IMG/VR virus record: IMGVR_UViG_3300026512_000027
Location: 1-42,440 of that record
DNA from: a virus
Direction: 5' to 3' (one strand)
DNA: 42,440 bases
How positions within the stretch are numbered: the stretch's first letter is position 1; every line of letters begins with the position of its first letter. Shown here piece by piece: positions 71-32,753 of this stretch. Both the position numbers and the translations under genes were made by a program. The notes under the pieces are model-generated. The model ran no database searches. It was not told the DNA's origin and saw nothing but the letters and a program-made list of their open reading frames with translations.

Positions 71-622
71 TTAAACTCTGTCAAACCAGCCAACGAATTT
101 TTCATTTGCTGGATGTGTTATATCTAGATTATAATACCTCATAAATTGTAAACCATTCAAGACTTTTAATAGTCTTCGTTCTTTAACTTTATGAACTGCA
201 TCTATTGTTTTCTTTCCAACATAACCATCTACATCTAAATCAACAAATAGTTTACCATTTCTGTTTAATAAGTTTAAAGCTTTCTGTAATTGTTTACCAG
301 CAGTATTCCAATTACCTAGATTTACACTTTGTTCTAATAACTCTTCTGCTACTATAAATGGTAATTCATCCCCTCTAAATTTATCCCAATATTCTGTCTT
401 ATAGAATTTCTTAACATCATCCTGTAGTTCTACATTACCTTGCAACAGTACCTGCCATTTATCTGTTACTTTCTTGTAGTCATCTATAATGCTCCAACCA
501 TTCCAATTTGGATGATAGCCTTTACTTATACCTTTATATGTCTCACCACCTTTATCATCCTTATCATAGCTATAGCCACCTTCTATACTTAATAAGTTAT
601 TCAATGCTTCTTCAAATTTCAT
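71..622 (-). CDS. endolysin, glycoside hydrolase 108-type muramidase
   Basis: 183 aa. The N-terminus carries the GH108 signature (IEGGYSYDKDDKGGETYKGI), with E14 as the expected catalytic glutamate. The second half (NGKLFVDLDVDGYVGKKTID) looks like the peptidoglycan-binding domain usually fused to this family. GH108 enzymes cut the N-acetylmuramic acid to N-acetylglucosamine bond, so this is the probable cell-wall-degrading endolysin. There is no signal peptide, so it should depend on the holins encoded just upstream for access to the wall. Its ATG overlaps the stop of the micro-membrane gene before it (TAATG), which suggests coupled translation. Length is normal for the family. Confidence 0.9.
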   Translation of the reverse strand: MKFEEALNNLLSIEGGYSYDKDDKGGETYKGISKGYHPNWNGWSIIDDYKKVTDKWQVLLQGNVELQDDVKKFYKTEYWDKFRGDELPFIVAEELLEQSVNLGNWNTAGKQLQKALNLLNRNGKLFVDLDVDGYVGKKTIDAVHKVKERRLLKVLNGLQFMRYYNLDITHPANEKFVGWFDRV

Positions 623-708
623 TATATTTCCTCTGCTAATACTTTATATGTTAAATACACTATGAGAACTACACATACACCTAACAATGCCTCTGAACTT
701 AACATCAT
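622..708 (-). CDS. 28-aa single-TM micro-protein in lysis cassette
   Basis: A short frame, MMLSSEALLGVCVVLIVYLT and on to KVLAEEI, with one hydrophobic helix (about residues 8-22) and a charged C-terminus. A GTAGGTG ribosome binding site precedes the ATG. Its start overlaps the stop of the preceding small gene and its stop overlaps the ATG of the muramidase, so it sits in a tightly coupled chain. Its position suggests a lysis accessory role (holin-like or spanin-like), but the function is unproven. Confidence 0.6.
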   Translation of the reverse strand: MMLSSEALLGVCVVLIVYLTYKVLAEEI

Positions 709-854
709 TATTTTACACCTACAATAGTCATTATTATAATTAGTAAGCTTATAATAACTATTATACCTATCGTTTTATCTCTTTTGTATGCTTTAATATT
801 AGAACAAGTATCTGTGTATCCGTATTCACACTCCATCTTTCTTATCCATTTCAT
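708..854 (-). CDS. 48-aa single-TM micro-protein in lysis cassette
   Basis: Starts MKWIRKMECEYGYTDTC, has a basic segment (KAYKRDK) and then one strongly hydrophobic helix (about residues 30-46, IGIIVIISLLIIIMTIVG). The ATG overlaps the stop of the holin-like gene (ATGA) and the stop overlaps the next ATG (TAATG). Two cysteines precede the TM helix. It could be an inner-membrane spanin or holin regulator, but nothing in the sequence identifies a family. Confidence 0.6.
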   Translation of the reverse strand: MKWIRKMECEYGYTDTCSNIKAYKRDKTIGIIVIISLLIIIMTIVGVK

Positions 855-1207
855 TTCTGTATATCCTTCAAGTTTATACCTGTAAACTTTTGTAATAACA
901 CTTGTGCAAATCTACTCTCTATAATTCCTAAAATAGCATAACTGGATACACCTATGAAGCCAATTATACCATCTCTACCATTTAGATCTATTGGTATGAA
1001 ACTACCTAGTGCATTAGCTGTAAATCCCCCCAGGAAGGCATTTATAATCATAGCACTATTACTCCATACTACATCCTTATTCATTTTCTTTTGCTTTGAA
1101 TAATCATACATATATGCTACTACTCCCCCAAAACTTCCTAAGATAATATCTTTTGCTGTGTCTAAAAACTGTAGCATAAAATGCACATAATTACTATTCG
1201 GTATCAT
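851..1207 (-). CDS. holin-like membrane protein
   Basis: 118 aa when started at MIPNSNYVHF. That ATG has a good AGGAGAAGAG site, whereas an ATG five codons upstream lies inside the site itself. Hydrophobic segments fall near residues 18-33, 53-70 and 78-97. A Gly/Ala-rich core (AFLGGFTANALGSF) sits in the middle segment. The layout resembles small phage holins, and the gene lies between a probable membrane sensor and the muramidase. The start overlaps the end of the preceding gene by 14 bases out of frame. Family assignment is by topology and context only. Confidence 0.65.
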   Translation of the reverse strand: MIPNSNYVHFMLQFLDTAKDIILGSFGGVVAYMYDYSKQKKMNKDVVWSNSAMIINAFLGGFTANALGSFIPIDLNGRDGIIGFIGVSSYAILGIIESRFAQVLLQKFTGINLKDIQK

Positions 1208-1907
1208 CTCTTCTCCTACCATACATTATTGAACTTGAACTGAGTAGAAGATTTAAAAATATCATCATAAATCCGATACCATACACCACTAACCTAAACC
1301 ATTTATACCTTGTCATCATCTCTTTTTCACTGACACCTTGCACAACTACTATTTGTTGAGGTTTCACCACACTAGATTTAGACAATCCTCCAAAACCTAT
1401 ATCCTCACTAGGTAGCACTCGCCACTCTAAATATTCTTTATCGTGCTTAAATAACCAACTATATCCCATCCAAGTACTATCTGTACCACTACTCATAATT
1501 GTTACTAATTTATGACACCACTCCCGACTGTTTTTACATATTTTCTTTTTAGTCCAGTACCTATCTTTGCCACAAGAATATTTAGGGTTACTATCAAATA
1601 TATATTTTTTATCTTGTAAATTAAATGCCCAAACACTACCACTATTACTGACTTTCATATGCCCTGCACAAGTATGCAAAGCTTTGTATATTTCTTTTTC
1701 AGACTTTATACTATGCCTAGTGTAGAGTCCATCTTTATCCATTAATAGCAAATCATTTACACACATCTTTATCTGTGATAGATTGTATTTAGCTTGTGTT
1801 CTAGCACTGTTTTCTAAGCTAATTCTCCAAGCTGTATCAATTGTTAGTGTAGAAATAATTGTCAGTAATATAAACAATACAGATTTAGTGGAGTATTTAT
1901 GCTTCAT
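1194..1907 (-). CDS. two-TM membrane protein with Cache-like periplasmic domain
   Basis: 237 aa from MKHKYSTK (GGGAAGAG site upstream; a TTG five codons earlier is a weaker choice). It has a TM helix at residues 9-24, a large extracytoplasmic domain and a second TM helix near the C-terminus (VVYGIGFMMIFLNLLL), followed by a basic tail. The ectodomain has features of Cache sensor domains: GSVWAFNLQDKKYIFDSN, then the G-Y-S-W and EW-VLP segments, and a final strand before the second helix. It has five cysteines, which is suitable for periplasmic disulfides. Cache domains bind small ligands in chemoreceptors and sensor kinases, but here no signalling domain follows. In a lysis cassette, a periplasmic sensor could act as an antiholin. 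That role is inference. Confidence 0.5.
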   Translation of the reverse strand: MKHKYSTKSVLFILLTIISTLTIDTAWRISLENSARTQAKYNLSQIKMCVNDLLLMDKDGLYTRHSIKSEKEIYKALHTCAGHMKVSNSGSVWAFNLQDKKYIFDSNPKYSCGKDRYWTKKKICKNSREWCHKLVTIMSSGTDSTWMGYSWLFKHDKEYLEWRVLPSEDIGFGGLSKSSVVKPQQIVVVQGVSEKEMMTRYKWFRLVVYGIGFMMIFLNLLLSSSSIMYGRRRDDTE

Positions 1908-2040
1908 TGTTACTCTTCCCAACTAATTTTATTTTAGCTCCATTTCTAGCACAAGACTTTTGAAATATCTTTAATATTGCCTTTGCCTCTTCTTCTGAAA
2001 TATTTCCTAAATCTATCTCTAATATATACTTTTGCCTCAT
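1897..2040 (-). CDS. 47-aa small protein
   Basis: Begins MRQKYILEIDLGNISEEEAK and continues as a soluble alpha/beta peptide ending KLVGKSNNEA. It has an AAGGAAAA site, its ATG abuts the stop of the 3-TM holin gene (TAGATG), and its end overlaps the start of the Cache-like gene. The short beta-alpha layout is common in small phage proteins. Function unknown. Confidence 0.6.
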   Translation of the reverse strand: MRQKYILEIDLGNISEEEAKAILKIFQKSCARNGAKIKLVGKSNNEA

Positions 2041-2481
2041 CTATTTTCCTTGTTTCCACAATGTTATAGCTTTTTCGATACTTCTACCGCCTATATAACC
2101 ACCAATACCTAATTTCAGTACCGCCCACATATCAGGAGTGATAGTCTTAACAGGTAATGATATACTAAACAGTGCTTGAATATAAGGTGATATTACATAC
2201 TCGTTTGCTATTATAAATCCGAATAGTAACATCAATAAAGGTCGCCAACTTCTTTGTAACCAATTTCCTCCCATCTCCGCTATAATCACATCTCTTTTAA
2301 TTTGCATTGTAGTTACAAAACTAGCTATTAATGTAGTTTTTAATTGATTTTTAATTTGCTCTAAGAGATTTTTATTTCGCTCTCTTTCATCATCAGAAGT
2401 AAATAAATTATCTGCGGCTTTCCCCACACTATCTACTACTTTATCAACTCCACCTGAAATAATATCTGAAAACCAACTCAT
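2041..2481 (-). CDS. holin of the 3-TM family (GTA/phage type)
   Basis: 146 aa. A charged N-terminal half with a DDERERN segment is followed by the pattern WLQRSWRPLLMLLFGFIIAN, then P-Y-I..LF and a Gly-rich final helix (GIGGYIGGRSIEK). This is the recognised arrangement of the 3-TM holin family first noted in gene transfer agents: WLQRSWRP before the first helix and GGYxxGRSxEK at the end. It should form lesions in the inner membrane at lysis. It overlaps the preceding membrane protein by 4 bases. Confidence 0.85.
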   Translation of the reverse strand: MSWFSDIISGGVDKVVDSVGKAADNLFTSDDERERNKNLLEQIKNQLKTTLIASFVTTMQIKRDVIIAEMGGNWLQRSWRPLLMLLFGFIIANEYVISPYIQALFSISLPVKTITPDMWAVLKLGIGGYIGGRSIEKAITLWKQGK

Positions 2482-2735
2482 ATCATATCCTTAATTGTTT
2501 CAAGTAAAAACAACATCATAGGCATACTTATAGTAGCTAAAATATCGTTAGCTTCTGCATCGTGACTAGTGGTGAAACTATCGTATATCTCTTTACATGT
2601 AGCTACAATAACTACTATACCTAATGCAATAGTGTGAGAACCAAGCATAACGATTATACTATATAAAGCTAATCCGTAAAAAGCGTGATTAGCTTTATCT
2701 TGTGGTAAGGTTATAGCCTTAAGAATTTTTTCCAT
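2478..2735 (-). CDS. small membrane protein with DKxxH...KExYD motif
   Basis: 85 aa from MEKILKAITL, chosen because AAAGGGAA lies at the right distance. It contains QDKANHAFYG followed by two hydrophobic helices, with KEIYDSF between them and D-I-L-A-T before the last. The DKxxH plus KExYD pattern occurs in YfiM/VanZ-like membrane proteins and in unnamed phage proteins that sit next to holins. Role unknown, and the lysis-cassette position is the best clue. Confidence 0.6.
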   Translation of the reverse strand: MEKILKAITLPQDKANHAFYGLALYSIIVMLGSHTIALGIVVIVATCKEIYDSFTTSHDAEANDILATISMPMMLFLLETIKDMI

Positions 2736-3210
2736 TGAGTTCCCTTTGTATATACTCTTCAAGTCTTTTAGGATTTAGATTATTTATTTTATGCAACTCA
2801 TCACCTAGCCAACATAATTTTAACAATCTAGCTGCACTTTCATCACAAGTCAATCTTTTTCTATCGCCTATATTCAGTTTAAAAACATCAGAACCCACAA
2901 TGTTTAGCCAATCATACTTCATTCCCAAGAAGCTATCAGCCATTTCTATCATAGCTTTTTTATTCTCTATTGATATTTCAACTTTATATTGTCTCCAATG
3001 TTTCTCATTTAGTGTCATACATTTTCGTCTATATACACCATTCCTTGTAGAAGCTGACCACCAACATATATTATCAAAACTTAGTTCTACATGGCTAGGT
3101 ACTAATTTCCACTTACCATTAAGCTTATCTTTAAAGTCAGCAGTCCACCATTGTATTCCTTTGTCAATTAAAGAACCACCGCCAATATAAAAAGCTACTG
3201 TAACTTCCAC
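2719..3210 (-). CDS. permuted NlpC/P60-like (YiiX/C92-type) cysteine peptidase
   Basis: 163 aa, starting at GTG with a GGGG site. The N-terminal part has the membrane-proximal segment IDKGIQWWT and SHVELSF (candidate catalytic His41). The C-terminal part has MKYDWLNIVG and LTCDESA (candidate nucleophile Cys). His before Cys is the order expected in circularly permuted papain-like amidases, which often cleave peptidoglycan peptides or lipid amides. In this position it may help wall degradation or genome entry. The family call rests on motif order only. Confidence 0.6.
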   Translation of the reverse strand: MEVTVAFYIGGGSLIDKGIQWWTADFKDKLNGKWKLVPSHVELSFDNICWWSASTRNGVYRRKCMTLNEKHWRQYKVEISIENKKAMIEMADSFLGMKYDWLNIVGSDVFKLNIGDRKRLTCDESAARLLKLCWLGDELHKINNLNPKRLEEYIQRELNGKNS

Positions 3211-10046: not shown

Positions 10047-13000
10047 TTAGAATATCATACTACTTCTATTATAGTCTAAATCCTCATCTTCATTATTGTC
10101 TATTTCCCATATCTCGCTATCAGCATCATCATAAATACTTCTTATACTACTAGTTTCATTATTAGGCACAACATAGTCTATTACTGCCATTTGTGATATC
10201 AAGTCAATTCCATCATCATGTGAACTGTTATGAACTACCGCTCCATTTGCTAGTGTGAAATTATGACTATGTTCTATTTGTAAATCATATACTACTTCTT
10301 TCTTTCTTTTTATGATTTTCAATATAGGCAGCATTCTTACATGCTCTAGAACAGTATTTTTTGATGCTACTACATGATATAAACTCTGTTCCACAATGCT
10401 CACATGTTTTTGGTTTTCTAAGATTGTTCCTAGTTTTTCTACACTCTTCAGAACAATATTTTGGGGTACTACTTCCTTTATGTATGAACTCAATTCCACA
10501 GGATGCACATTTGAGGGTACGAATTTTAGTGTCTCTGAGGTATTTTTCATGTTTAAGTGCACACTTTTCTGAACACCTATATTGATTTGGTACCTTTGTT
10601 TTAAACTCGTTACCACACTCAAGGCAAACTCTAACGGTGCCATTAGGAACGTAATTAGGGTTGTTGGTTTTAAGTCTATATTGCCCCCTACATTGCTGTG
10701 AACAGTACTTTGTACTGTTTTTATCTTTTTCTTTGAGCTTAAATTCAATACCACAATTTTTACAAATTCTGATTTTATTCCCTTTATTAATTTTACGCAT
10801 TTTTCTTTGACCGATGTATTTACCTTTTTTGGCCAATTTAGCCAATTCACATCTTCTTTTAATCTCTTCTGCTGTGGCCTTTCTTCCGTAGAAATGGGGG
10901 TCTTCCGCATGGTGTTTTTGATGTTTTGTAGCTGGTAGTACTTCCAAATTAGTGATTGAATTATTCTGTTTATTATGGTCCTTGTGATGAATATCCATAC
11001 CTTTTGGGATAGGGCCACACTCTTGTTCATATACATAACGGTGCAACCATCTTCTTTTACCTCCAATGTTAGTGGTGGATTGATAATATCCTGTTTGTTT
11101 AGCTGTCCATTTTTTACCATAGATTGTGATTTGTTCCATTCCTGAACCCCTGTTATAATATAGTCAGTAGCTTCCAGATCTTTTACACATACATACCCCC
11201 TATTAGTCAACACTCTATGATCAATGGTTAGGTGTATATCACCAGTAGGAAGTGTAATAGTGTATGTTTCGGCTACTCCAGATATTATAGCTGAGGTTAC
11301 CTTACAGTTTACTGACGAACCATTGTATTGAGAGATAACGGTATCACCTGCTTGAACATCTCTTATACTTAGCATACCTTTATCTGTTATAACTTTTGTG
11401 TCTGCTGATATACAGCCTATGGCAGTTTCACTCAAGTATGCCAGCTCCTCCAGCATCTCTTTCATGTCATCTGTTTCTTTTATTTCTTCAGGGAAGAATA
11501 CTTTTTTCATCTCAAAATGTGGCATACTATATTTAAACCTCTCTAGCTTATTACCCCCAACAGCTCTACTTGATATACCTATTTGTTTAGCAGATGCTCC
11601 TTTTTGTTTAGCAAACCTAAACCAAAAATTCTTTTGTATCATCATAGCTTTCAATGCTTCTACATTTAGTTGTTGCTGTCCATCTATTTCAACACCGACA
11701 TCTAATATTCTACCACCTCTACTCCATCTATTTAATACCCTAAATAAAGCATCATACTGTTCCTGCATAGTGTACTTTCTTAAGTTTAAGTCCAACAAGA
11801 ACCAACTGTCGTTAGCACTTATAGCCCATACAGCAGCACCACTGAAATCACCTTTCTTACTATTACTTGCAGTAAAGTCTGTTGTTACTACTATTGTATA
11901 GTTAGACAATTCTGGTACAATTACTTTTCTACTATACCACTGTACCATACCTTCTTTAATTAATTTATCTTCTTCACTACTAATTCTCAACATCAACTCC
12001 TGATTAAGTTCTCTTAATGTACCACTATAATAAGCATCTTCATAATTTTCCATAAACTCTTCGTATGGATGCATCTGCGGCCAGCTACATACATATTCTG
12101 ATTTAGGCATACCTAGATATACCTTTTCACATAACGGTAAACATACTGGTGTCCATACGCCACTTTCTAATGCACTATAAACAGGGTCTCTTTTATTGAA
12201 CGGAGTATTAACAGCTATCATTTTTTTCTTACTTCCCATAGCATGCTGGGCATCAGCAAATATCATACTTCTCAATTTATCCATTATTATCTTACTATTA
12301 GCATCTGCCTCCGTCTTTATAATATCGTCAAAAATTATACAATTTTTACTTATTCCAAATAATGTTTCGTATGCATGCTCTGTACCAACAACATTTTTTA
12401 AATCTGTATTATTACATTCTATAGGTACTACATCTAATTTACCTACTTGCTTTGTACTTTTGATTTTTCTCCATAACATACCATTAGCAATATGCACTTG
12501 TTTAAATCCTATTTTATTACTATCCTTTACAGAGATATTAAGTAGTTTATCCACATTAATAGTATTATCTATTCTAGCCCCTATCCAATGTTCAGTAGTT
12601 AAATCTTTTGCCTGTACCCAGTCAGATGCATACTCTATATATTCTCTTACTAATTTTTTTGTCTTGCTATCTCGTACTTGTTTACTTACACACTTTTTTG
12701 CCCAATACTTATGATCATAACTAACAAGTTCTTTAGCAGTTAATCCTCTTAAACTGACTTCTAAACATTCTTCTTTGAATTTACCAATTTGGTATGGATG
12801 CTCCTCTACCGTATATGTACCAAACTCAGTAGTAACAGTTGTTCCTACAACATGGCAACTAGGTCTTTCTGTTCTGTATCTAATACCCCTTACACCACTT
12901 GAAGCTCCTTTTACCTTATACATAAATGATCTTTTTTTAACTCTATCAGTCCCTTTCCTAATAAATTCACATTCTTCATCTGTAAATCTCATCTTCTCAA

Positions 13001-13655
13001 AATACCCTTTACAGAACTCACTATCTTCGCAGAAGTCTCTAATAGTATTTGCTTGTACTTTTGCACCACCTTTTTGACTATCACCAAAACCTACTACAAA
13101 CATCACATCACCAAAGTTTGGTATCTTACCAGTGATTGCTACATATATAGGTAAGTATGCTGTTATAATCGTAGACTTTGCAGAAAATCTTGCTGCAATT
13201 ATAGCTATTTTTCTACTATTAATTCTTATTTTATCATTGATTTCTTTACTATATGGATACTTGTCTCTTGTTATATTATCGAATACTAAATCTACTAGGA
13301 AGTAATGCATCAAACTATTAGGTACTTCAGGTTCCCCTCCTAATACTAATCTTATAATATTAAAAAACTCTATAGCATCTTTACTAGGTTTATAACCATT
13401 AAACATTAAATCTATATTGTCAAGGGCTTTATCTACATTAAATTCATAGTCAGGTCTTTTTCTAATCCTAATTTCTCTAGGTTTTTCTATAACTCCTTCT
13501 TCAACTAATTGTTCATACTCTTCCCAATCACCTACAGGAACATTAGGATCTTCTACTTTACCAATTATACTATCTTCATCTTTTTTAGGTCTAACTTCTA
13601 CTATAACCTCTTCTTTATCGTCCTTAAATTCCCCATACCCTTTAAGCTTCGCCAT
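10047..13655 (-). CDS. terL: terminase large subunit interrupted by two inteins
   Basis: 1202 aa as read, about 634 aa after removal of two inteins. The ATPase domain has a deviant Walker A (ARFSAKST, residues 155-162) and Walker B split by intein 1 (CIIFDD, residues 439-444). The nuclease domain has VVTTDFTAS (D593), VGVEIDG (E656) and SSHDDGIDL (residues 1144-1152), the last split from the preceding residues by intein 2. The enzyme packages DNA: its ATPase drives translocation and its RNase H-like nuclease cuts concatemers. Both inteins sit in catalytic motifs, so unspliced protein should be inactive. It overlaps terS by 14 bases. Splicing is inferred from intein motifs and the clean extein junctions. 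Confidence 0.92.
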   Translation of the reverse strand: MAKLKGYGEFKDDKEEVIVEVRPKKDEDSIIGKVEDPNVPVGDWEEYEQLVEEGVIEKPREIRIRKRPDYEFNVDKALDNIDLMFNGYKPSKDAIEFFNIIRLVLGGEPEVPNSLMHYFLVDLVFDNITRDKYPYSKEINDKIRINSRKIAIIAARFSAKSTIITAYLPIYVAITGKIPNFGDVMFVVGFGDSQKGGAKVQANTIRDFCEDSEFCKGYFEKMRFTDEECEFIRKGTDRVKKRSFMYKVKGASSGVRGIRYRTERPSCHVVGTTVTTEFGTYTVEEHPYQIGKFKEECLEVSLRGLTAKELVSYDHKYWAKKCVSKQVRDSKTKKLVREYIEYASDWVQAKDLTTEHWIGARIDNTINVDKLLNISVKDSNKIGFKQVHIANGMLWRKIKSTKQVGKLDVVPIECNNTDLKNVVGTEHAYETLFGISKNCIIFDDIIKTEADANSKIIMDKLRSMIFADAQHAMGSKKKMIAVNTPFNKRDPVYSALESGVWTPVCLPLCEKVYLGMPKSEYVCSWPQMHPYEEFMENYEDAYYSGTLRELNQELMLRISSEEDKLIKEGMVQWYSRKVIVPELSNYTIVVTTDFTASNSKKGDFSGAAVWAISANDSWFLLDLNLRKYTMQEQYDALFRVLNRWSRGGRILDVGVEIDGQQQLNVEALKAMMIQKNFWFRFAKQKGASAKQIGISSRAVGGNKLERFKYSMPHFEMKKVFFPEEIKETDDMKEMLEELAYLSETAIGCISADTKVITDKGMLSIRDVQAGDTVISQYNGSSVNCKVTSAIISGVAETYTITLPTGDIHLTIDHRVLTNRGYVCVKDLEATDYIITGVQEWNKSQSMVKNGQLNKQDIINPPLTLEVKEDGCTVMYMNKSVALSQKVWIFITRTIINRIIQSLIWKYYQLQNIKNTMRKTPISTEERPQQKRLKEDVNWLNWPKKVNTSVKEKCVKLIKGIKSEFVKIVVLNLSSKKKIKTVQSTVHSNVGGNIDLKPTTLITFLMAPLEFALSVVTSLKQRYQINIGVQKSVHLNMKNTSETLKFVPSNVHPVELSSYIKEVVPQNIVLKSVEKLGTILENQKHVSIVEQSLYHVVASKNTVLEHVRMLPILKIIKRKKEVVYDLQIEHSHNFTLANGAVVHNSSHDDGIDLISQMAVIDYVVPNNETSSIRSIYDDADSEIWEIDNNEDEDLDYNRSSMIF
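10227..11414 (-). mobile_element. intein in TerL nuclease motif, with out-of-frame endonuclease gene
   Basis: 396 residues (C748-N1143), followed by S1144. The N-terminal splicing domain runs from CISADTKVITDKGMLSIRDV through LTIDHRVL (block B, TIDH) to DLEATDYIITG. The C-terminal blocks are VVYDLQIEHSHNFTLANG and AVVHN. Removal joins SETAIG to SSHDDGIDL, the nuclease motif III region. Between the splicing blocks the intein frame stays open for about 284 codons but has no recognisable endonuclease. That stretch encodes an HNH protein in another frame of the same strand. Confidence 0.88.
10285..11139 (-). CDS. HNH homing endonuclease nested out of frame inside TerL intein 2
   Basis: 284 aa, read in a different frame from TerL (offset 2). 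The N-terminus has the HNH core LHRYVYEQECGPIPKGMD, IHHKDHNKQNN and NLEVLPATKHQ. Then come four zinc-finger-like repeats of the form CxxCGxEF...YCSxxC (CKNCGIEF, CLECGNEF, CASCGIEF, CEHCGTEF), likely for DNA recognition. It has its own AGGGG/CAGGA-type ribosome binding site inside the intein coding sequence. Its TGA lies exactly where the intein C-terminal block begins (within the VVYD codons). It should cut intein-less terL alleles to drive homing. Translation from the nested start is inference. Confidence 0.85.
   Translation of the reverse strand: MEQITIYGKKWTAKQTGYYQSTTNIGGKRRWLHRYVYEQECGPIPKGMDIHHKDHNKQNNSITNLEVLPATKHQKHHAEDPHFYGRKATAEEIKRRCELAKLAKKGKYIGQRKMRKINKGNKIRICKNCGIEFKLKEKDKNSTKYCSQQCRGQYRLKTNNPNYVPNGTVRVCLECGNEFKTKVPNQYRCSEKCALKHEKYLRDTKIRTLKCASCGIEFIHKGSSTPKYCSEECRKTRNNLRKPKTCEHCGTEFISCSSIKKYCSRACKNAAYIENHKKKERSSI
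12342..12857 (-). mobile_element. mini-intein in TerL Walker B site
   Basis: 172 residues (C267-N438 of the TerL frame), followed by C439. Block A starts CHVVGTTVTTEFGTYTVEEH, a block B-like YDH lies at residues 313-315, and WVQAKDL fits a following strand. The end is EHAYETLFGISKN, then C. Removing it joins RTERPS to CIIFDD, a normal pre-Walker B/Walker B sequence. It is too short for an endonuclease domain. The usual penultimate His before the final Asn is Lys here, although the upstream His (H428) is kept. Confidence 0.8.
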
Positions 13656-15176: not shown

Positions 15177-17393
15177 CTATCCACACTTTTTCTTTGTAAA
15201 CAATTCTTCAGCAAACATAGCCATCTTACTTCTCACAACTTTACTAAGTTGTATAGCAAACATTTCTACATCACAATTTATCTCCTTTCTACAAGCTTCA
15301 TCCATCAATAAAGCCATACCATTATTATAAACACTCAGATACTTATTATCTATCTGTCTCTTGCTACCAATTACAATTACTTTACAATCTTTACCAACTC
15401 TAGTCAGCACCTTCTGCATAGTAGCAGGACTATAGTTAGTAGCCTCATCAAGTATTATAACAGCATTATGAAATGTTCTACCTCTTAATCCAGTAGTTAT
15501 TATAGTATCTATTCCATAGTTCTTTACCATCTCTGCTACTTTATTCTCTATCTTTATATCATAATCTGCTTTCTTACCACTTTTATATGGTGTACAACTT
15601 CTCATCATAAAGTCTAGAGTATCTTTAGCAGCTCCTAGATACAAATCCATCTTCTCTGTATTCCCAGCTAAATACCCAATGTCTTCACCTAAATCTTCAT
15701 CATTAGTTGGTGATCTTACATATACTAATTTTTGATATTTATCTTTATTCATTTGCATTATTCGTATAGCATTACTAAAGGCTACAATTGTATTATGGGT
15801 AAGATTATATCCATTAGTGATATATAAATGATCACTACTATCAACTGATATACAAGTAGCATTTTCTCTATGACTATACTCTATAGCAACAATTGATTTT
15901 GGTTTATTAGCCATTTGTCTTAATCTCCAACTTTTATGTCCTTCTTTTAACTCTCCTTTATGCCTACTATTAATAGTAAACACTTTACCTAAGCTTCTAC
16001 TTAATTCTAAGTAATCCTTAGCTAATTGCTCAGACGATGTAGAATACTCTTTAACTATCCCATTCTTATCAACATTACCACCTGTATCTGTTAGTCCTTG
16101 CCACAAGGCCTTTCTATTCTCAAGTGAATTATATAAATATTCACTAGGTATATGTTTATCTACAGGTAACTCACCTCCTAATAATAATCCTATAACATAA
16201 GGATCTATAGGTAACTTCATACCATTAGAAAACTCACAAGCTTCTGCTTTAGGTATAGAAAAATTATAATAAGATCGATAAGTACCATATCTTTTATCAT
16301 AACGATCTTTTCGAATCCAAGTATTAAGCATTTCCCTTACTGTTACATTCTTATATCCACTATCACGCATACCTTTCGTTCTTTCTCTCACAGACCATAT
16401 ATGATCTATATCACATAAGACTTCTGTACCATCTATAAAACTTACTTTATAAATATCTCTTTCTCCTTGTGGATAGATTGCTGTAACATTTTTTGCTTTA
16501 CCATCAGAACCAATAACTTTATCCCCAGGTCTTATCTCACCTATTGTAGTCCAACCTTTATCGGTAAGTACTCTTTCACTATTTGGTTGTGCCTTCCCTG
16601 ATCCTGCAGGACCTTCTATCAACACCATATCAATATTTTCATCCTGTATGGCCTTACTGACTAATAATTGTTCAGCATTAATAGAAGCAACCATTTGTTT
16701 TCTTAACAACTTCTCAGTATCTCTACCGATAACATTTATATACCCATTACTAATAGTAGCTAACTTAACTTGACCACTTTGACTACTAGTAAATTTATAA
16801 CTATAATTCTCAGTATTAACTTCATCTACAACATCTTCTATCTTACTGTTATGCAATCTACTAAACATTTCTTCATCATCAATCTTAACTTCTCTAACAA
16901 ACTCATATTCATCTTTGTCACTTATTTTAAACTCTTCAACAACTAATCCAGTGGACATAGCATTCAATCTAGCCATAACATCATTACTAAAGAATACAAC
17001 ATCATATCCATTATCTACTACAGCTTTAGCAGTATTTATTATTCTCTTATCATTATAACTATCTTCCCCTACTCTAACACCATAATCATATAATTTAACA
17101 ACAAGTATCACTGTACCATCATTATGCATTAACTTAGTCCATACATCTCCAGTACCCTCAGGACCAGTAGTTTTAACATCAGTAACAGTACATTGTGCTA
17201 AATACCTACCAACACTTCTAGCTTGATAAGCAACTTCACCATATCCATTCTTCTTACTATCGCATTCTTCCAACACTATACTAGGTAGTACAACAGCATC
17301 ATAATTTCTACCAATAGCATTAATATTTCCAGCATCTAATAACAATATATTTGTATCAACAACAGCTACTCTATTTATATCTTTTACTATCAT
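15177..17393 (-). CDS. phoH: PhoH-family ATPase with PIN-like N-terminus and a class 3 intein
   Basis: 738 aa as read, 471 aa after splicing. The N-terminal 150 residues look like a PIN nuclease domain (VAVVDTNILLLD with D13, VLPSIVLEE, ending FFSNDVMARLNA). The PhoH ATPase follows: IEGPAGSGK/T split by the intein (residues 259-267 and 535), PTNDEDLGEDIGYLAGN, GLRGRTFHNAVIILDEATN (Walker B, DE at 649-650) and IGSKRQID. PIN-PhoH proteins are RNA-handling ATPases of uncertain role and are common in phages. Ribosome binding site AGAAGGAAAG. It lies downstream of the ClpP-like gene and a 61-aa protein, probably in one operon. Confidence 0.9.
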   Translation of the reverse strand: MIVKDINRVAVVDTNILLLDAGNINAIGRNYDAVVLPSIVLEECDSKKNGYGEVAYQARSVGRYLAQCTVTDVKTTGPEGTGDVWTKLMHNDGTVILVVKLYDYGVRVGEDSYNDKRIINTAKAVVDNGYDVVFFSNDVMARLNAMSTGLVVEEFKISDKDEYEFVREVKIDDEEMFSRLHNSKIEDVVDEVNTENYSYKFTSSQSGQVKLATISNGYINVIGRDTEKLLRKQMVASINAEQLLVSKAIQDENIDMVLIEGPAGSGKAQPNSERVLTDKGWTTIGEIRPGDKVIGSDGKAKNVTAIYPQGERDIYKVSFIDGTEVLCDIDHIWSVRERTKGMRDSGYKNVTVREMLNTWIRKDRYDKRYGTYRSYYNFSIPKAEACEFSNGMKLPIDPYVIGLLLGGELPVDKHIPSEYLYNSLENRKALWQGLTDTGGNVDKNGIVKEYSTSSEQLAKDYLELSRSLGKVFTINSRHKGELKEGHKSWRLRQMANKPKSIVAIEYSHRENATCISVDSSDHLYITNGYNLTHNTIVAFSNAIRIMQMNKDKYQKLVYVRSPTNDEDLGEDIGYLAGNTEKMDLYLGAAKDTLDFMMRSCTPYKSGKKADYDIKIENKVAEMVKNYGIDTIITTGLRGRTFHNAVIILDEATNYSPATMQKVLTRVGKDCKVIVIGSKRQIDNKYLSVYNNGMALLMDEACRKEINCDVEMFAIQLSKVVRSKMAMFAEELFTKKKCG
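15792..16592 (-). mobile_element. class 3 (WCT) intein in the PhoH P-loop, endonuclease degenerate
   Basis: 267 residues (A268-N534), inserted between GSGK and T535. There is no Cys or Ser at position 1. The class 3 triad is visible: W333 two residues after block B H331 (DHIW), C514 in block F (ATCISVD) and T532 before the final HN (LTHN). The middle has a shortened LAGLIDADG-type domain (PYVIGLLLGGELP, HIPSEYLYNS, WQGLTDTGGNV). The acidic residues normally ending each LAGLIDADG motif are Gly (G407, G438), and the segment between the motifs is much shorter than usual, so the endonuclease is probably dead. Confidence 0.88.
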
Positions 17394-32191: not shown

Positions 32192-32370
32192 TGATAAAAA
32201 TTTATTTTAATTTAGAGTTTTCTCAGGATTTTGAGATAGAGATGAGTGAAAAAGAGTATGCTGTGTTTTCTTCTATGGATTTTCTCGAAAAAGAGAAAAA
32301 TTTGATAAATAAAAATAATAGTAATTTAGTAGGTATAGAATCCTACAAAAAAGAGAAGGATAAAAAATGA
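32191..32370 (+). CDS. 59-aa acidic protein
   Basis: MIKIYFNLEFSQDFEIEMSE..., a beta strand followed by a charged helix, ending ESYKKEKDKK. TAATG overlap with the preceding gene and ATGA overlap with the lipoprotein gene. Function unknown. Confidence 0.6.
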   Translation: MIKIYFNLEFSQDFEIEMSEKEYAVFSSMDFLEKEKNLINKNNSNLVGIESYKKEKDKK

Positions 32371-32753
32371 AAATTTTATTAAAGTTCATAATGCTTGTAT
32401 TTGTTTTAAATTTCTTTACTGCTTGTCAATGGAATAGGGATGCTGATATAGCCTCTAGCAACCTTTCCAAACAAGCAGATATGTTTGAAATAAACAGAAG
32501 AATTATATTCTATAATGGTATAACAGGGAAATATATTTTAGCTATAAAAGGATATTGTTCTATTAAAGATGAAAAAAATCAGTTAGAAGTTACTTGCAAA
32601 ATTGCTCCTGGTCAATACAAAAAACATTTTCTAGGCTTATCAGACAATGTCACTTATTTTGCAGAACAAATAAATTCAGCAAAAACTTCTGTTTCTGCAT
32701 ATTCTGTTGTGTTTAAACCTTCTGCTATAATACCCAACATTGATCTAGAATAA
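32367..32753 (+). CDS. phage lipoprotein, beta-sandwich type
   Basis: 128 aa. Signal peptide MKILLKFIMLVFVLNFFTAC with a lipobox-like end (FTAC, C20). The mature part has RRIIFYNGITGKYILAIKG (then YCSI), KKHFLGLSDNVTYFAEQI and VVFKPSAIIPNIDLE, the recognisable pattern of the phage-encoded beta-sandwich lipoprotein family. It should be anchored in a membrane facing the periplasm. Proteins at this location can alter entry of other phages, but that is not shown here. Confidence 0.75.
   Translation: MKILLKFIMLVFVLNFFTACQWNRDADIASSNLSKQADMFEINRRIIFYNGITGKYILAIKGYCSIKDEKNQLEVTCKIAPGQYKKHFLGLSDNVTYFAEQINSAKTSVSAYSVVFKPSAIIPNIDLE

Follow-up and report, generated by a model that had tools for sequence, protein, structure and literature searches.

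The lysis cassette of this virus lies on the minus strand of the window, by which we mean the whole 42,440-nucleotide stretch analysed (IMG/VR record IMGVR_UViG_3300026512_000027). In the direction of transcription it comprises a GTA_holin_3TM-type holin gene (2041..2481; PF11351, E 9.5e-14; phrog_3427, E 1.2e-30), a 47-aa ORF of unknown function (1897..2040), a gene for a membrane protein with two transmembrane (TM) segments and a predicted Cache-like ectodomain (1194..1907), a holin candidate that is LydA-like by its orthologues (851..1222), a 48-aa protein with one C-terminal TM segment (708..854) that overlaps the holin stop, and a GH108 endolysin with PG_binding_3 (71..622). The 47-aa ORF and the Cache-like gene share 11 nt at the start of the latter, and a similar stretch lies upstream in a closely related contig, L001. 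An earlier note on this DNA had placed the Cache-like gene between two holin-type genes; such genes do lie on both sides, with the nuance that the 47-aa ORF separates it from the upstream GTA_holin_3TM gene. Elsewhere on the minus strand of the window we observed a 1202-aa ORF with an intein (10047-13655; residues 760-1143 match PF14890 Intein_splicing at E 2.4e-11, and a C-terminal splicing region is matched as well), a 738-aa ORF (15177-17393) with its best PhoH2 helicase match at 8-268 and a PhoH model at 634-724, the stretch between which could be another insertion, and a 163-aa ORF (2719-3210) that matches phrog_1128 (E 9.9e-18, 'enoyl-CoA hydratase/carnithine racemase-like') and nothing in Pfam, and for which the enoyl-CoA hydratase name seems doubtful.

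The Cache-like gene runs from an ATG at 1907 to a stop at 1194-1196 and encodes 237 aa; the program-made ORF list opens it at TTG 1922. By hydrophobicity the product has TM segments at residues 9-27 (1827..1883), within a long predicted helix spanning residues 7-55, and at residues 206-224 (1236..1292), which flank the predicted extracytoplasmic Cache-like domain (residues 28-205; 1293..1826). Because the tails comprise only 8 residues at the N-terminus and 13 at the C-terminus, the protein has no signalling domain, and the 13 residues after the second TM segment hold no cytoplasmic output domain of the MCP or histidine kinase type; the hydrophobic segments and short tails thus bear out the earlier description of a two-TM protein lacking such a domain. 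The N-terminal tail carries three K/R residues and the C-terminal tail three K/R and three D/E. We assume an N-in/C-in topology with residues 28-205 outside, which fits the predicted receptor-like layout.

The gene is conserved in nine viral contigs. The family was built stepwise by IMG/VR scans: L001 (97% identical to the window protein), L004 (~38-40% identity, reached via its neighbouring holin), L044 from the L004 query, and L045-L050 from the L044 query. The nine-member set comprises the window, L001, L004 and L044-L049, the L049 protein lacking about the first 37 residues; L050, with 28 residues at a contig end, was left out. A further IMG/VR scan with the nine-member alignment (A6) yielded no new contig, L051-L055 being re-cuts of known ones. 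Invariant in A6 are Cys49, Cys80, Cys124, Cys131, the EYLEW motif, P166, E168, G171, P183 and a QGV.E.E motif. The best conserved stretch is residues 158-171 (1395..1436, minus strand), which includes EYLEW, P166, E168 and G171, and in and after strand β4, respectively, 5/8 and 7/20 residues are invariant among the eight full-length members. No profile in Pfam, PHROGs or NCBIfam matches the family. The window and L001 genes differ by 28.8 synonymous and 9.2 non-synonymous changes (dN/dS 0.065), which argues that the ORF is a real gene; the pairs L045/L046 and L044/L047 gave 0.066 and 0.126, these three being the usable ones of seven pairs computed, since four were saturated at synonymous sites. 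The Cache-like gene is under strong purifying selection. L001 also carries an integrase gene right behind its lysis genes (L001:1747-3036), with a best genome match, 83% identical, in a Campylobacterota MAG (L009), which suggests that L001 may be a temperate phage of Campylobacterota.

In all nine contigs with downstream sequence (the window, L001, L004 and L044-L049), an overlapping holin-type gene comes directly after the Cache-like gene. The overlap is 14-20 nt, counted in the window, L001 and L046 from an inner Met that likeness to the other contigs suggests as the holin start; in the window, homologue alignment favours this inner start, at 1207, and the overlap is still 14 nt. The window holin candidate itself has no match to PF16083, only one to a PHROG 785 holin (E 0.0036), and its orthologues in L004, L044, L045, L047 and L048 match the PF16083 LydA holin profile at E 1.1e-4 to 4.9e-3. 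With the holins of the Bacillus phages AR9 and BpSp discussed below, seven of the eight neighbour holins tested match PF16083, at 17.4-26.1 bits, none of the eight reaching the curated cut-off of 28.4 bits; the holins of L001, L046 and L049 are called holin-type by likeness. Behind the holin, a one-TM ORF of 44-57 aa is present in 8/9 contigs, the exception being L001 (for example L045:6053-6211, L047:6053-6187 and L048:6026-6199). A GFEK..CPxRxLENEKLF-like motif is common to these ORFs in L045-L049 and looser in L004 and L044, and the window copy (708-854) has diverged. The endolysin is of the GH108 type in the window and L004, a phage lysozyme in L001, L045, L048 and L049, and an M15 peptidase in L046 and L047, and none was recognised among the next genes of L044, few of which were profile-scanned. 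Since the endolysin varies among the eight contigs showing one, the Cache-like/holin unit persists whichever type of endolysin follows. Not every holin of this type has a Cache-like partner, since five large phages (PhiW-14, nACB2, SH-Ab 15599, Cygsa01 and KPP25) encode related holins without a two-TM protein of this size among their translated neighbours. Adjoining some related holins that lack a Cache-like neighbour are proteins of 95-107 aa with three hydrophobic segments (L025:2730-3017, L028:2618-2941 and L030:3262-3573), which are perhaps another class of holin partner.

An AlphaFold model built from nine homologues (mean pLDDT 70.0, pTM 0.65) has helices at residues 7-55, 70-81, 129-139 and 202-236 and strands at 92-96, 101-105, 158-165 and 186-193, with residues 170-179 below pLDDT 50. 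In this model a long N-terminal helix leads into a PAS-like α/β domain held between two TM helices, a feature of the Cache superfamily. Nine sequences underlie this predicted fold, of which hhalign kept seven (Neff 1.9); an earlier model based on three (pLDDT 56.8) had no firm counterpart in the PDB. With the nine-sequence model, Foldseek found nothing in the PDB under E 0.001; its best match was an integrative WalK-YycH model (E 0.011), followed by two WalK ectodomains (E 0.039 and 0.068). VIA-align, comparing the candidates supplied by Foldseek, scored highest the chemoreceptor chain of a YvaQ-McpB integrative model (Z 11.4), and then the WalK ectodomains 5is1 (Z 11.1; 3.0 Å over 135 residues) and 4ywz (Z 11.0), TlpB (3ub9, Z 10.9), Tlp1 (4wy9, Z 10.8), a carboxylate-binding Cache domain (5g4y, Z 10.2), and CitA and DcuS (Z about 8), on a scale on which models without a clear match usually peak at Z 7 to 8. 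Bacterial sensor ectodomains make up most of the best 50 VIA matches, the others including calcium-channel chains and biosensors. We take the structural matches to be Cache/PDC folds, partly from their entry titles and partly as general background on these proteins. When the window model, which contained no AR9 sequence, was searched against BFVD with Foldseek, the top match was a PBS1 protein of 316 aa (E 2.4e-5, prob 1.0), ahead of a mimivirus 'Cache domain protein' in second place. On the strength of these models we consider it highly likely that the ectodomain would prove Cache-like, and we read this as a fold and not as Pfam membership because no Cache profile matches. The Cache-type ectodomain proposed in the earlier note, for which structure prediction was the suggested check, is thus upheld by the model and its sensor matches, without support from a sequence family.

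At the sequence level, no Cache model matched the window protein at E up to 10, nor any of the nine members in Pfam. Searches of Pfam, PHROGs, NCBIfam and PDB sequences with the window protein returned nothing useful, and PDB profile searches with the family alignments A4 and A6 found no match. By tblastn the Cache-like protein had no match among plasmids, and among phages the window protein had only a match at E 8 and the L004 protein none; a scan of genome contigs with the protein found no relative, and Listeria phage LPJP1 matched at E 3 only. Among bacterial genomes, the family alignment A2 had matches at E up to 0.1 in 13 of 397 Campylobacterota genomes. Two of these, L032 (Cache_3-Cache_2 by Pfam) and L036 (similar by eye), align on a chemoreceptor stretch, at E 0.006 and 0.0087 against 0.0049 for the best control in the null test described below, and we set them aside as a hint. 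At E 0.01, alignment A6 matched one of the 397 Campylobacterota genomes, over 60 positions (L061), and none of 398 Pseudomonadota genomes; it had no match in five further genomes either. The genome sets searched include no known carrier of the Cache-like gene, and absence from prophages is thus not shown.

A more distant relative is found in jumbo phages of Bacillus. In a tblastn search of 50,697 phage records with the L047 protein, AR9 and PBS1 came first (E 0.02, residues 124-223). The AR9 match is g081, annotated 'putative membrane protein', which also matches phrog_23473 (unknown function); g082, a 'putative holin' that matches PF16083 (E 9.3e-6; 26.1 bits, cut-off 28.4) and a PHROG 6384 holin (E 1.1e-31), starts 13 nt after it. 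The 316-aa PBS1 protein found in BFVD is presumably the product of PBS1 gene 274, which has this same length and is the PBS1 copy of g081. By hhalign, A6 matches g081 at E 5.2e-6 over only about residues 125-198 (~75 residues), and a profile of g081 plus BpSp gp152 at 3e-5. As a null test, 386 ORFs of the loci studied were ranked together with 772 shuffled or reversed controls; the nine family rows led, followed by g081 (5.2e-6), gp152 (0.001), an integrase ORF of L019 (0.0031) and the best control (0.0049). The L019 integrase match must be due to chance, and g081 is clear of every non-member and control; no ORF from the loci of the five large phages without a Cache-like neighbour reached its level. 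Taken alone, gp152 is only slightly ahead of the L019 ORF; its weight comes mainly from being 41% identical to g081, and the sequence evidence is therefore carried by AR9 g081.

AR9 g081 and BpSp gp152 retain residues E161, W162, P166, E168 and G171 of the window protein. Like the window protein, AR9 g081, PBS1 gene 274 and BpSp gp152 have a large extracytoplasmic region between terminal hydrophobic segments, carry the EW..xPxE...G and P motifs, and are encoded directly before a LydA-like holin. They differ in being longer (316-326 aa, with longer insertions, at about 20% identity to the window protein), in having no cysteines at the four conserved positions, in lying 13-25 nt from the holin gene instead of overlapping it, and in having a Gram-positive host. 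The relative and a LydA-like holin gene are adjacent in 7/7 Bacillus phage records, which represent two distinct sequences, six records being identical (AR9, PBS1 and Goe21, with RefSeq copies) and the other BpSp; the holin gene is annotated as such in three of the seven. The available text of Lavysh et al. (PMC5312081) places AR9 g082 in the late gene class, and g081 is absent from the main text as far as it was available. A scan of IMG/VR with an AR9/BpSp alignment found only AR9's own genome. Compared directly by hhalign, the window-type holins and the AR9 holin are not significantly similar (E 0.044), and the two types meet only via PF16083, below its cut-off, and PHROG holin matches. The link from the window family to AR9 is carried by about 75 aligned residues together with the predicted fold and gene order.

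Altogether, computation gives a gene under purifying selection, encoding two TM segments and a predicted receptor-type fold, in a conserved order beside a holin-type gene. The link to lysis made in the earlier note has grown firmer with the overlapping holin-type gene in 9/9 contigs and the same order in the AR9/PBS1-type and BpSp phages, and we think it very probable that the Cache-like protein works with its holin in lysis. In our model, it would be a headless Cache-type receptor, consisting of a TM helix, a Cache-like extracytoplasmic domain and a second TM helix without an output domain, and a dedicated partner of the adjoining LydA-like holin, the two proteins being made together and meeting in the inner membrane. 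The Cache-like domain would read an extracytoplasmic state, which might be a small ligand, a fragment of the cell wall or a cue from the envelope. Because there is no output domain, any signal would have to exit through the TM helices, and because the adjoining holin is the constant partner, contact with the holin TM segments would be the simplest route; the helices might thus relay the signal by touching the holin directly and so time its trigger, most likely by holding it back. The central reading, to which we give a probability of roughly 50%, is that some kind of extracytoplasmic cue leads the protein to regulate its holin, with either sign.

Holding back is favoured because the holin partners P1 LydB (PMC9025707), T4 RI (PMC8385771) and ICP1 ArrA are described as inhibitors in the parts of the literature available to us. 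That the Cache-like protein is a negative regulator of the holin is accordingly a serious possibility, to which we assign slightly less than an even chance, and gating by a defined ligand is a more tentative suggestion. The earlier note's ligand-gated antiholin joins these two proposals, both of which are inferred. As would be expected of an antiholin, the gene is encoded beside the holin in 9/9 contigs and in 7/7 Bacillus phage records (two distinct sequences). The 48-aa gene at 708-854 competes for the same label because its position and topology match those of F352_034, the one-TM neighbour of the LydA-type holin of Campylobacter phage F352 that has been taken as a putative antiholin (PMC7692668, available in part). 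By this precedent the 48-aa gene would be the better placed antiholin candidate, and the cassette may hold two lysis regulators, the Cache-like protein and the 48-aa protein.

The conserved gene overlap with the holin would equally suit an accessory that senses nothing, with the Cache-like domain retained as a scaffold to stabilise, localise or dose the holin as a co-holin, chaperone or constitutive antiholin. No ligand is known and there is no output domain, and partners beside LydA-type holins are known, in P1 LydB (PMC9025707), or predicted, in F352_034 (PMC7692668), in the text available from these sources. However, a sensor-type fold of ~180 residues, a dN/dS of 0.065 and a best conserved stretch at β4 are more than a scaffold seems to need, and we regard this explanation as unlikely.

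Two other roles would loosen the tie to the holin. As an unusual spanin or spanin partner, the protein would be an i-spanin bridging both membranes with an o-spanin supplied by a small upstream lipoprotein. Lipoprotein-like ORFs of 55-84 aa do lie directly upstream of the Cache-like gene in L044 (4760-5014), L045 (4835-5014), L047 (4767-4949) and L048 (4847-5014), with a start overlap in three of the four, and possibly represent o-spanins or further partners; no other spanin was recognised in the stretches examined. However, a wider lipobox scan found no such ORF beside the Cache-like gene in the window or L046 (L001, L004 and L049 having too little upstream sequence for this check), and both ends of the protein appear to be anchored in the inner membrane. 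The relatives also precede a holin in phages of Bacillus, which has no outer membrane, and this makes a spanin role highly improbable. The only lipobox ORF of the window in that scan encodes a predicted 128-aa lipoprotein far from the lysis cassette (32367-32753, plus strand). In other systems, membrane proteins with periplasmic domains take part in superinfection exclusion, and Cache receptors are active as dimers, so that the phage protein could instead block incoming DNA, or pair with Cache receptors of the host and silence them. Against these roles stand the holin-type neighbour in 9/9 contigs and 7/7 Bacillus phage records and the lack of close host-receptor kinship at E 0.01 beyond the one short match among 397 Campylobacterota genomes (0/398 in Pseudomonadota), and we judge exclusion or a decoy function very improbable.

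Among known proteins, WalK (YycG), TlpB, Tlp1, CitA and DcuS share the predicted fold and the TM-domain-TM layout (Z about 8-11), whereas the phage protein has no HAMP, kinase or MCP output and no Pfam Cache match and, unlike WalK-type sensors, is encoded in a lysis cassette. T4 antiholin RI is similarly extracytoplasmic and believed to sense a cue and control a holin, but RI is small, periplasmic and made with a cleavable signal peptide, and its holin T has a large periplasmic domain (PMC8385771, available in part), which the window holin lacks by hydrophobicity. In P1 and in Fletchervirus F352, as proposed here, a regulator gene adjoins a LydA-type holin. However, LydB has no predicted TM segment (PMC9025707), F352_034 is a 61-aa protein with one C-terminal TM segment encoded downstream of the holin (PMC7692668), and for neither do the available parts of these papers mention a Cache-like domain. 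By position and form the counterpart of F352_034 in the window is the 48-aa gene and not the Cache-like gene.

If the sensing model holds, a receptor fold in a conserved partner of the holin would offer signals a new way into lysis timing. Holins determine when a phage lyses its host, and few cases of an outside cue feeding into a holin are described in the literature available to us, namely T4 RI (PMC8385771) and ICP1 ArrA. We found no published phage holin partner with a Cache domain, in a search that excluded most subscription papers and so does not prove absence. In B. subtilis, the signal that WalK senses is reported to be peptidoglycan cleavage products (PMC7299342, available in part); a lysis regulator that reads cell-wall damage would make sense, as an analogy drawn from the fold alone. 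We speculate, though this is a doubtful proposition, that these proteins form a previously undescribed class of lysis regulator in phages of Gram-negative and Gram-positive bacteria, in which a decapitated Cache receptor reads the envelope and gates the holin directly, with no kinase, chemoreceptor or gene expression step, the cue perhaps being cell-wall fragments as for WalK. That a Cache-like protein and a holin form a conserved unit in phages of quite different kinds extends the first observation, and it suggests an area of function for phrog_23473 and for a family unmatched by Pfam, PHROGs and NCBIfam. Because the AR9 record gives B. subtilis 168 as host, the idea is testable in a laboratory phage-host pair. 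Some phages may thus tune the bursting of the cell with a sensor fold borrowed from bacteria.
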